From Methyloprofundus sedimenti (lineage in GTDB: Bacteria; Pseudomonadota; Gammaproteobacteria; Methylococcales; Methylomonadaceae): a stretch of 64,000 nt of DNA. Location of the stretch: positions 343,001 to 407,000 of the forward strand of contig NZ_LPUF01000001.1 in assembly GCF_002072955.1 (NCBI RefSeq), written 5' to 3'. Positions 10,693 through 15,400 of this stretch are shown here, piece by piece. Each line of letters begins with the position of its first letter. Position 1 is the first letter of the stretch. The notes under the pieces are model-generated. The model saw nothing but the letters and a program-made list of their open reading frames with translations, ran no database searches and had not been told where the DNA came from. The translations under genes and the position numbers were made by a program.

Positions 10693-12140
10693 GGCCCAAT
10701 TCTTAATTACGTTAAAGGCCAGAAAGTTCGTATCTATTATAAGAATATGTTATCTGAGCCATCGACCATCCATTGGCATGGATTGCATGTGCCACAGCAC
10801 AGCGATGGTCATCCGATGTATTCTTTAGCGCCTGGACAAAGCTATGTTTATGAATTTGAAGTCATGAATAATGCCGGCACCAGCTTTTATCATTCGCATT
10901 CACATAATTTAACTGCAGAGCAGGTTTATAAAGGTCTAGCAGGGCTGATTACGGTCACTGACAGTGAAGAGCTAAAATTAGATATACCACGGGGCGAGTA
11001 TGATTTGCCGTTTGTTATTCAGGATAGAACTTTTAACGCGCAAAACCAGTTACAGTATTTACATGGTATGCACGGCAGAATGATGGGTTTTTTGGGCGAA
11101 AACATTTTAGTCAATGGTACACCAAACGCCGAATTTTCGGTAAAAACGTGCGCTTATCGTTTTCGCGCAGTGAATGGCTCGAACTCCAGAATTTATAAAT
11201 TAGGCTGGGATGATGGTACGCCGTTAACGGCGATTGGCACTGATGCGCATCTTTTAGAAAAACCAGAAACGCGGCCTTACTTAATGTTCGCACCTGGTGA
11301 ACGTATTGATTTATGGCTGGATTTTAGTGGTCGTGCCGTAGGCTCTAAGTTAGTTATGTACAGCTTGCCCTATGAAGGAGCGATGCCGCCGAAAATGGAA
11401 GAGCAACGCCTGGGCAAGAAATCTTCTGGCGGTATGGGTGGAGGAATGATGGGCGGTGGCATGATGGGAATGATGGGGTCTGGTTTAGGTCAGGGTGATA
11501 AATTTCCAATTGCCACATTTAAGATTACCGAAAAAGTCAGTGATTCACCTGAATTACCGAAAACATTAGGTCGATTTGAACGTTTAACCGAGGCGAGTGT
11601 AGATAATCCTAATAAACCGATACCGATAGGTATCGATATGAAGCCGATGCGTCCAATGTTAAATGGCAAATCTTTTTCCATGAATCGAGTGCTGGATTTT
11701 GAAAGAGTTGAACTTGGCTCGATTAAAAAATTAAAATATTTCATGACCACGGCCCTATGAAGATGGAAGAGGGCGAAAAAATGGATAAAGATATGGATAT
11801 GTCCGATGGCAAAATGAACATGGAAGGTGGTGGAGGTATGGGTATGATGGGTGGAGGAATGGGTGGTGGGATGATGTTATCCATGGCGCATCCGATACAT
11901 CTGCATGGTCAGCAATTTCAGGTGTTATCCAGAGAGATCGAAGGAATGCGTCAGGAAGAGTATAAAACGGTAAAAGACGGTTTTATCGATACAGGCTGGA
12001 AAGATACTGTTTTAGTGATGCCGGGTGAAGAGATTGTTATTGCCAAGCCGTTTCAGGATTACAAAGGTTTGTTTTTATATCATTGCCATAATCTTGAACA
12101 TGAAGACTTAGGCATGATGCGCCAGTTTTATATAGGCTAA

Positions 12141-13434: not shown

Positions 13435-14277
13435 ATGATGAAACGCACATTACGCTTATTACATAGTATTATCATACTTTCAATAACAGCATGCTCCGTT
13501 TCAAAAAACACAGTAGAACCCGATGACCAGCCTATTGTCGGCTGGGGAAGTTCTGAAGGCATTAGTCGCCTGGAGGAATCGAGATATAAAACCGATTTCT
13601 TTAAATTAGCTAATCATTTTGAAAGCCAGCACAACAAGATTTTTTGCGGCCCCACTTCGGCCGCTATTGTTCTCAATTCATTGCGAGTACGAAATGGATC
13701 TATTCAAATCCCTGAAGACAAAACGCTGCTTAATCAATCTGATTTACAATTCCTTGCGAGCAAAAAATGGTCTCCTTTTTTCCAGCGTTATACTCAAAAC
13801 AACATATTTCTGAATAGCCCAAAATCCAGAGCATTTGTACTGGGTAAAGTATTGCTGGACCCAAAAGGTAATATCATCATTGATGAAAAAGGTAAGTCTA
13901 AAAAAGACAGAGGATTCCAGGTACGTCAATTAGCTGAGTTATTCCGGGAACATGGATTAAGTGTAAAAGTCAGTATCGTTAATCAAGCCCTGGATAATAC
14001 AAGTATTAAAAATGAAATTATTGAGAATTTAAGAACGCCTAATGATTATGTTATTGTCAATTATAAACGTACTGTTTTAAACCAGGCCGGCGGTGGGCAT
14101 ATATCACCTCTAGGCGCATATCATAAAGCGTCCGATTCATTTCTTGTCATGGATGTTACCCCGAATAAAGCAGATTGGGTCTGGGTAAAAGCGGATCTAT
14201 TAATACAGGCCATGCGTACATTTGATACTCATGAGAATCGTGGCTATTTGCTAGTTAAAGAAAAAAAGAGCCAGTAA
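13435..14277 (+). CDS. Phytochelatin-synthase-like lipoprotein
   Basis: A 280-residue protein with an N-terminal lipoprotein signal (hydrophobic stretch ending SITAC, cysteine near residue 20) and a phytochelatin synthase domain. The catalytic triad is visible: Cys in FCGPTSAAIVLNSL near residue 71, His in GGGHISPLGAYH near 222, and Asp in VMDVTPNKADWVWV near 239. It lacks the C-terminal metal-sensing half of plant enzymes, as bacterial forms do. Bacterial homologues mainly hydrolyse glutathione or glutathione conjugates and may make gamma-Glu-Cys oligomers. Envelope attachment implies periplasmic action. It lies beside a broken copper oxidase gene. Confidence 0.88.
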   Translation: MMKRTLRLLHSIIILSITACSVSKNTVEPDDQPIVGWGSSEGISRLEESRYKTDFFKLANHFESQHNKIFCGPTSAAIVLNSLRVRNGSIQIPEDKTLLNQSDLQFLASKKWSPFFQRYTQNNIFLNSPKSRAFVLGKVLLDPKGNIIIDEKGKSKKDRGFQVRQLAELFREHGLSVKVSIVNQALDNTSIKNEIIENLRTPNDYVIVNYKRTVLNQAGGGHISPLGAYHKASDSFLVMDVTPNKADWVWVKADLLIQAMRTFDTHENRGYLLVKEKKSQ

Positions 14278-14636
14278 ATTAGCTCTTATTACACTCTCAA
14301 TTTGAATACTATTATAAGTGTTGTGCTAAGCATTCCAATAGCATTTTAGCTGCAACCCACGATAAAAATCACTCTAAAAGCAAAGCGGGCCGTGCTGCCG
14401 CATCCCGTTAATGACCGTTTGAAAAGTGCAGCGGATCATTCCTTAGGTCACGAATTAAAAATTAAGCAGGGATAGCCCTAAAGAACTCGTAGCGCGATTT
14501 GTGACCTGATATCGTTTTTTGTTAAAACTTACTTGTAAATTGTCTCAATACAACCCTAATTTTTAATGCCTGAAAGCGCCTATTGTTGACATAAATACTC
14601 AGTTGAAAGTTTTTTAATAAGCGTATACCTTAACTA
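14278..14636. other. Gene-less stretch upstream of the riboswitch
   Basis: No ORF is supported. TTGACA occurs at 14586-14591 but without a well-spaced -10. An alternative pair is TTGAAA (14603-14608) with TATACC (14624-14629) at 15-bp spacing, which would place a start near the riboswitch 5' end. Promoter assignment is tentative. Confidence 0.35.
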
Positions 14637-14637
14637 G

Positions 14638-14720
14638 GAGACAACGAAAAGCTAAACCTGCTGTAACGCAGGGACAGAAAGTGACGGGGCCTAAATGGGG
14701 AAGCCGAGCTGCCGAAAGTG
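14638..14720 (+). ncRNA. Cyclic di-GMP-I (GEMM) riboswitch
   Basis: The segment shows the ordered GEMM-I features: AAACC (14654-14658) opening a stem CCTGC/GCAGG (14657-14661 with 14668-14672) capped by TGTAAC containing a GTAA tetraloop; then GGACAGAAAG (14672-14681), where the AAAG following the conserved GAC holds the adenine that stacks between the ligand bases; then GGCCTAAATGG, like a tetraloop receptor; and AGCCGAGCTGCCG closing the second arm. The ligand-contact G in the 5' strand appears kept, favouring c-di-GMP over cGAMP. The next long ORF is 700 bp away, beyond a terminator. Confidence 0.75.
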
Positions 14721-14782
14721 ATTCAGGAATGGATTTAATGATGTGTATATTTTAATAATATATCAATATTGCACACCTGCTT

Positions 14783-14816
14783 ACTACTCAAAAGTGTTAA
14801 ATATTTTTTGAGTAGT
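14783..14816 (+). promoter_or_regulatory. Hairpin downstream of the riboswitch, possible expression platform
   Basis: ACTACTCAAAA (14783-14793) and TTTTGAGTAGT (14806-14816) are perfect 11-bp complements, about 60 bases after the aptamer. No U-tract follows immediately, so it is not a standard terminator. It could act as an expression platform or a transcript structure. Confidence 0.4.
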
Positions 14817-14844
14817 CATTAAAATAATAATTAGGATTTTAAAA

Positions 14845-14874
14845 ATGACTGAAGAAAAAAGCAACAACACCTGA
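14845..14874 (+). other. 9-codon ORF with a good ribosome binding site
   Basis: ATG at 14845 follows TTAGGA at 8-base spacing and encodes MTEEKSNNT before TGA. It is the first translatable start after the riboswitch. It may be a leader peptide or the broken start of a lost gene. With one extra A in its A6 run, the frame would stay open to 15092, but that product is not recognisable. Confidence 0.3.
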
Positions 14875-14880
14875 ATTCAT

Positions 14881-15205
14881 TCAGAACTAGCATGGGAACA
14901 GGCGCGCCATGCTACCTCACGAAATTCCGGGACTCCTGTCGCCTTCATTCATTCACATACGCAGCGACTAGGGGATGCCCTGAACGCCCTGCGTCCGCAA
15001 CGACTACGCACAAAAGCCGCTTCGTCAAGGCTACCTCAAATGGCTTGACGGCTATTCGGAATGCAATTCTTGCTTCTCTCGCGTGCTGCTAGCACACGTC
15101 GAATCAGCGAATTGCCCTGTCGCCTATCAGGGACTAAAAATCATCACTTCGCTTAGGCTCCGTTTCCCTGATTTTCAGCGTTGGAACAGAAACTTACGGG
15201 TTCGA
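14881..15205. other. G+C-richer block of consecutive stem-loops, no coding assignment
   Basis: This block stands out from its AT-rich flanks. It contains perfect dyads in series: TAGCATG/CATGCTA (14888-14894, 14908-14914), CGTCAAG/CTTGACG (15023-15029, 15044-15050), GTGCT/AGCAC (15083-15087, 15091-15095) and TCAGGGA/TCCCTGA (15127-15133, 15165-15171). A plus-strand frame, 14892-15092, is open but has no family features. The last dyad followed by CAGCGTTGG is faintly reminiscent of an integron attC end. A structured RNA or a mobile-element fragment are both possible. Confidence 0.3.
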
Positions 15206-15250
15206 CATCAATTCAATTGTCATAACTGTAAATTTGAGTGTAATAAAATC

Positions 15251-15280
15251 AACCCGATAAATGCGGGTTATTTTTGTTTT
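15251..15280 (+). terminator. Intrinsic terminator
   Basis: AACCCG (15251-15256), a 7-base loop, CGGGTT (15264-15269), then ATTTTTGTTTT. This is a good Rho-independent terminator on the plus strand. It closes any transcript that begins at the c-di-GMP riboswitch about 610 bases upstream and separates it from the CBS-domain gene. Confidence 0.8.
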
Positions 15281-15400
15281 AGACATATCCACAAGCACTA
15301 CAGTCCATGTTGCAAATAATGTAACTAATGCGAGTTTGATGCATATTCTCTGCTTGCCTTTAATTTTTAATAATGTCCATTTTTAGGGAAATTACACATC

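Follow-up and report, generated by a model that had tools for sequence, protein, structure and literature searches.

The analysed stretch of 64,000 nucleotides of Methyloprofundus sedimenti DNA (hereafter the window) contains a transcription unit headed by a c-di-GMP-I (GEMM-I) riboswitch aptamer, the features of which are listed in Table 1. The product of the gene just upstream of the unit (13435-14277) has a phytochelatin-synthase domain (PF05023, E 1.7e-39). At 10747-12140, multicopper oxidase domains are divided between two ORFs that overlap in different frames, with Cu-oxidase_3 in the first and Cu-oxidase_2 in the second, a possible frameshift. The original prediction had described the unit as an aptamer, an 11-bp hairpin, a 9-codon ORF with a ribosome site, a structured G+C-richer block and an intrinsic terminator, with no riboswitch target before the terminator. 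All of these parts were recovered by the searches described below.

Table 1. Features of the riboswitch unit, in window coordinates
Feature	Position	Strand	Basis or detail
Upstream region common to relatives, presumed promoter	14574-14640	+	TTGACA at 14586-14591; conserved ACTC(A/G)GTTG
c-di-GMP-I (GEMM-I) aptamer	14641-14716	+	RF01051 covariance-model match
Former expression platform, including 11-bp hairpin and AGGA	14717-14836	+	
9-codon ORF (MTEEKSNNT, then stop), start of lost small membrane-protein gene	14845-14874	+	match to G004 and G012
Short junction, gene remnant to repeat	14875-14898	+	
Dispersed repeat copy	14899-15180	- (5' end at 15180)	conserved secondary structure on minus strand
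Native 3' UTR of the unit	15181-15250	+	within G012 match
Intrinsic terminator	15251-15279	+	stem 15251-15269, then T-rich run

The RF01051 covariance model matches the aptamer with 47.3 bits (E 4e-06; gathering score 35), the sole Rfam gathering match within the 64 kb. A focused scan placed RF03167 (c-di-GMP-I-GGC) as the top clan family with 48.3 bits; because this score is below the gathering score of 59, the aptamer is not filed under RF03167. Alignment of seven window-type aptamers showed that 94.1% of the cells in the helices pair (31-52% in slid controls) and that 5 of 17 pairs change on both sides, with none of 500 shuffles as high for either measure. Further pair types were not raised among the seven sequences (8 vs. 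8.4). The aptamer resembles RF01051 riboswitches in its score above gathering, in helices kept with covariation and in the presence of the predicted contact bases, and differs from the model consensus in two P2-base pairs, which are C-G and U-A instead of G-C and C-G. The bases at the equivalents of the Vc2 contacts G20, A47 and C92 are G, A and C, in a register mapped by inference from PMC4744006 and PMC3764141. The same two papers place Vc2 G20 in an unpaired joining strand. Since the window aptamer has G at this position, c-di-GMP is expected as its ligand, a prediction made on sequence grounds. Altered ligand specificity had been considered and was dropped on account of the same G.

The region upstream of the aptamer is 78% identical to that of G012, a same-genus relative (Methyloprofundus clade), from 14574 on and is alignable in five genomes. 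A consensus promoter scan made no call at 14574-14640, and the promoter role is for this reason a presumed one. A separate locus, L059 (G003:C16), matches the upstream region and the first part of the aptamer (window 14607-14687) over 81 bp with 79% identity; it is absent from the RF01051 matches and may be a further relic or a diverged unit. Downstream of the aptamer, the hairpin is formed by a perfect 11-bp inverted repeat (14783-14793 / 14806-14816). Hairpins of this type with loops of 3-15 are no rarity in the window, where there are 14, compared with 1, 0 and 0 in three mononucleotide shuffles. A terminator scan found no plus-strand intrinsic terminator in the platform, so that translational control is the likelier mode of the ancestral riboswitch. 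One particular arrangement, a translation switch between the hairpin and the start codon, was rejected; the complementarity in the window was not observed by eye in G012, G006 or G004 (G004 not folded). The platform ends in AGGA at 14833-14836, 8 bases before the ATG of the 9-codon ORF.

The block at 14899-15180 has a G+C content of 54.3% vs. 34.1% in the rest of the unit and is shown below to be a dispersed repeat. No intact protein gene was found between the aptamer and the terminator: the ORFs of at least 30 codons beginning in this interval (66, 31 and 78 codons on the plus strand and 34 codons on the minus strand) all lie in or overlap the repeat or its 3' flank. A scan of 1.1 kb that included the 15251 terminator gave four terminator-like sites vs. 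1.2 in shuffles, so that conservation is the better support for this terminator, of which the stem and the T run are alignable in G012. The fold of the whole unit on the plus strand has a z-score of -3.5 (20 shuffles). This fold, the intact aptamer with its conserved contacts and the kept terminator speak for one of three options in the original prediction, a functional noncoding RNA of about 640 nt under the control of c-di-GMP; the evidence from related genomes and from the repeat bears on it below.

At locus L062 of G012, the leader is 78% identical to that of the window over 206 bp and is followed by an intact 117-codon gene and then by the 3' region, the terminator and a CBS-domain gene. 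The match of the 3' region, terminator and CBS-domain gene begins at 15178 of the window and extends over 703 columns with 85% identity; 15184-15400 alone is 81% identical. The CBS-domain gene was found (E 1e-20) in two of 18 genus genomes, the window's own and G012. The product of the 117-codon gene is a small, apparently single-span membrane protein, and its start matches the 9-codon ORF. With the ribosome site included, the first codons match G004 over 37 bp (89%, E 1.9e-9) and G012 over 38 bp (84%, E 2.8e-7). When the 54 bases from the ATG were compared without the ribosome site, shuffles scored as high in 262 of 500 cases for G012, 30 of 500 for G006 and 4 of 500 for G004. Judged by sequence from the ATG on alone, the remnant is clearly similar to G004, and its similarity to G012 is not significant. 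The junction at 14875-14898 showed no significant similarity to the gene and its following bases, with shuffles as high in 466 of 500 cases (G012), 129 of 500 (G006) and 476 of 500 (G004). G012 has a span of 628 bp from the ATG to the 3'-flank GAACAG, and the window has one of 339 bp, of which 56 bp are left after subtraction of the repeat (counted as 283). No close copy of the lost gene was found in the window's genome, which has only a 45% paralogue.

The unit had been presented as an orphan RNA unit, and an intact gene behind the aptamer at a homologous locus had been named as the observation that would speak against this. G012 has such a gene between the same leader and terminator, and the window unit is its decayed copy. 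The remains of a lost gene are the best supported of the three options, since G012 bears the intact gene after the same aptamer. The second option, in which the 9-codon ORF would act as the leader peptide of a riboswitch-peptide switch, would suit the ribosome-site-like AGGA 8 bases before the ATG. However, the nine codons are the start of the membrane-protein gene, and there is no gene before the terminator to be controlled, which makes a leader peptide highly improbable.

Relatives of the lost protein, at E 0.05 or better, occur in 16 of 18 genus genomes. They share the motif LK-RETEHL, which would read LKARETEHL in the ancestral small (64-117 aa) protein, and, by eye, a single hydrophobic stretch. 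G012, G006 and G004 have close forms (79-100% in the part that matches), and the others are more distant. The loci L083-L103 carry the LK-RETEHL family, mostly as 60-80-aa proteins. For the one member scanned, that of G006, Pfam gave no match up to E 1, and the NCBIfam matches were all below the cut-off. In G006 (L083), the same gene is preceded by an aptamer that falls short of the RF03167 gathering score of 59 (40.9 bits, E 2.6e-6). In G004 (L106/L084), the upstream region and the membrane-protein gene are kept but have no aptamer between them, a decay of the opposite kind.

The genes behind other aptamers were surveyed at 22 loci, comprising 21 of 23 RF01051 matches and L083 (the two omitted are that of the window and one below threshold). 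All 20 loci with at least 700 downstream bases have an ORF of 64 aa or more on the same strand, called mechanically, that starts no more than 273 nt downstream. Ten of the ORFs were scanned and include S8 peptidase, MauG-type di-haem, choice-of-anchor O and thioester-domain proteins, four with PEP-/VPLPA-CTERM matches (some below the curated cut-off) and two without a match. The window's genome has one more c-di-GMP-I match, located ahead of a VPLPA-CTERM protein gene (L081 6707-7451; G000:C1:861706 onward), beyond which lie genes resembling polysaccharide export by eye. In G003, a MauG-type di-haem protein gene is directly behind a window-type aptamer (L070 2191-3498, plus strand), and an ORF similar-looking by eye lies beyond the CBS-domain gene in G012 (L062 1-1104, minus strand). 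Unlike other RF01051 riboswitches, the window unit has no downstream gene to control, whereas genes are present in G012 and G006.

The G+C-richer block is repeated in the genus. Searched with window 14600-15290, 15 of the 18 genus genomes have matches. The match in G003 is at the aptamer end only, and the repeat is present in the other 14, nearly full length in 11 and partial in G005, G010 and G013. More than 20 matches, fragments counted, were found in G007 (50), G008 (33), G001 (32), G016 (28) and G006 (27), and the top identity among the copies is 94%. Alignment of 18 copies and the window copy with their flanks showed sharp common ends and nothing evident shared outside. By end patterns, the repeat spans 281 bp in the window; 14 of the 18 other copies measure 278-288 bp, and the remaining four came to 308-345 bp as a result of a misplaced left-end pattern. 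The window's genome has one full copy, that in the unit, and the others are partial or diverged, the longest match having 76% identity over about 200 bases. Within the taxonomic family, DNA matches to the repeat, often to the last 60 bp only, occur in 58 of the 151 genomes, and 17 of the 29 genera have them. Matches were also found on four plasmid records, all of methanotrophs, and none in phage records. On the Methyloprofundus plasmid pINp10 (AP023241.1; L123 2293-3279), an annotated IS200/IS605 transposase is followed 1.3 kb later by a copy that overlaps a 251-aa ORF at its 3' end. Enrichment of the repeat near aptamers was considered and dropped; a repeat match longer than 200 bp is present in 3 of 20 aptamer regions.

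The CGCTG end of the repeat is preceded, across three variable bases, by a C (CNNN/CGCTG; window 15181-15184) in 42 of 44 copies by eye. This C is present in 18 of 18 genus flanks (the window included; L051, without a flank, omitted), in 11 of 11 copies from other genera of the family (L141 omitted) and in 13 of 15 distant or diverged copies. The three bases vary even among close copies and in this resemble target sequence, suggesting that the C reflects target choice at insertion. A target-site duplication, GGAAC, was dropped as a candidate. The flank test with 17 copies, three of which had misplaced left ends, gave only a weak, uncorrected excess (2 to 19 of 200 shuffles as high, best of 24 offsets per length). 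A protein coded in the repeat was rejected as well: six of eight copies have stops in all six frames, the remaining two have one and two stop-free forward frames, respectively, and single-base indels between copies shift the frames. The ORF listings at 17 and 23 loci showed by eye no recurrent gene that could be an autonomous partner. Y1_Tnp genes, present in 17 of 18 genus genomes, are only a candidate partner.

Folding of 13 aligned copies with RNAalifold gave -69.3 kcal/mol and 71 pairs on the minus strand vs. -36.6 kcal/mol and 60 pairs on the plus strand. There are more G-U than A-C cells on the minus strand (120 vs. 6) and nearly equal numbers on the plus strand (18 vs. 17), and the z-scores against 40 column shuffles are -7.75 and -3.18, respectively. 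The minus-strand cells pair in 96.9% of cases vs. a shuffled mean of 90.6 (0 of 500 as high), and sliding the partners cuts the pairing to 35-46%. Changes on both sides affect 16 of the 71 minus-strand pairs, a number reached by 12 of 500 shuffles in a test that is favourable to the structure because the 71 pairs were derived from the same 13 sequences. Further pair types on the minus strand were not raised (43 vs. 46.1 in shuffles). A script-made alignment of 24 rows from multiple genera gave 47 predicted pairs, 23 of them changed on both sides, with a z-score of -7.7 (30 shuffles). The strand asymmetry fits an RNA; a fold of single-stranded DNA, as used by single-strand transposases, would show asymmetry too.

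A covariance model of the 5' half of the repeat (R1; 24 sequences, rough calibration) matches the window at 15031-15180 on the minus strand with 164.9 bits, the sole match, the next best having E 0.25. At E 1e-4, R1 matches 64 of 121 genomes of the order. At the same threshold, matches were found in 27 of 274 gammaproteobacterial genomes (25 of 222 genera), 24 of the 27 being outside the order, with at most 11 candidates scored per genome. The window's genome has nine R1 matches, the window copy included. In an alignment of 27 matches, which was fitted to the model and includes model-building sequences, pairing reaches 94.9% of the cells (72.7 in shuffles), and both-sided change is seen at 25 of the 34 pairs. 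Rfam 15 showed no match to the repeat up to E 1 for the window copy and 15 other loci, and at five genus repeat loci searched up to E 5 only an aptamer matched. No published description of the repeat was found in the literature searched; few of the searches were specific, and no claim is made that the repeat is unpublished.

The structured part of the window unit is the inserted repeat, with its conserved fold on the strand opposite to the riboswitch, and a protein gene stands at the same place in G012 and in all 20 readable units. There is no positive evidence for a noncoding RNA beyond the parts themselves, and a working RNA product of the unit is very unlikely.

Comparisons with known elements gave partial likenesses. 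Like the REP/RAYT palindromes, the repeat is dispersed, structured and multi-copy, and Y1 transposase genes occur in the genus as counted above. However, REPs measure 20-40 bp according to PMC3733652, whereas the window-type repeat is a multi-arm fold of ~280-330 nt. The repeat shares with MITEs its short length, lack of genes, many copies and clean ends; it differs in that no terminal inverted repeats were noticed by eye in the repeat alignment and there is no clear target-site duplication. HEARO and the IscB- or TnpB-type omega RNAs are structured RNAs on mobile elements with dispersed ORF-less copies, and the repeat resembles them in its structured, RNA-like sequence and in its dispersed copies without ORFs. 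It differs from them in having no Rfam match (aptamers were the only matches) and no nuclease gene by eye in the ORF listings of the 17 and 23 repeat loci.

A second interrupted unit was found in G001 at locus L080 (1-490, G001:C147), where a leader and aptamer as in the window are followed by a reversed copy of the repeat. The copy lies just upstream of the expected ribosome site and start codon, and the contig ends within it. A close form of the lost gene was not found in G001. The different position and orientation of the repeat indicate that the insertions in the window unit and in L080 are likely independent. With no gene visible in two units with a window-type leader (that of the window and L080, where the contig ends early), it could be supposed that the gene-less unit is ancestral and that G012 and G006 acquired the gene by a later insertion. 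However, the repeat is present in both units, with a different position and orientation in each, and the window retains the start of the gene, which leaves a gene-less ancestor extremely improbable. The repeat could also have been co-opted, with read-through RNA from the riboswitch being complementary to other copies and serving as a c-di-GMP-controlled antisense of the repeat family. The antisense placement of the repeat in the unit and the nine R1 matches in the genome are consistent with such a role. On the other hand, the orientation is opposite in G001, the sole other disrupted unit seen, and the longest other match in the window's genome is only 76% identical over about 200 bases; co-option is very unlikely.

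The window unit is very probably a non-functional relic of a decayed riboswitch-controlled gene, carrying an inserted repeat. Its leader, gene start, terminator and next gene are homologous to those of the relatives, the gene is absent and the repeat is present. In the ancestral state, binding of c-di-GMP to the GEMM-I aptamer would have set the expression of the small membrane protein, and transcription would have stopped at the terminator at 15251. In the window lineage, the gene body would have been lost after about codon 9, and the dispersed structured element of about 282 bp would have been inserted upstream of the native terminator. Gene loss and insertion may have come in either order, or perhaps together. 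The switch would now head nine codons, the junction and the antisense-placed repeat, up to the old terminator. Transcription presumably still starts at the unit and the aptamer may still bind c-di-GMP, probably with nothing useful being made. The aptamer shows no visible decay (47.3 bits vs. 43.6 bits in G012), suggesting that the gene loss is probably recent. However, a retained aptamer score would also be expected of a functional unit, which argues against a relic.

For the inserted block, we favour, with some reserve, the reading that it belongs to an undescribed family of gene-less, structured elements of 280-330 nt that are dispersed throughout the gammaproteobacteria. These would most likely be RNAs made from the strand opposite to the riboswitch, would insert three bases beyond a C (CNNN/CGCTG) and would have struck the same riboswitch unit twice in the genus. 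The riboswitch part is well explained by ordinary decay; what is new is this candidate structured-repeat family without a match in Rfam 15. An apparent orphan aptamer is here best read as a relic, a difference that is revealed by the comparison of genomes and not by one genome. The small membrane-protein family is a further likely target of c-di-GMP in methanotrophs that are also found as symbionts of mussels. If the repeat is a real RNA family, Rfam 15 would be without a structured RNA that is dispersed, with several copies, across many gammaproteobacterial families, and the movement and role of the repeat family would become testable questions.
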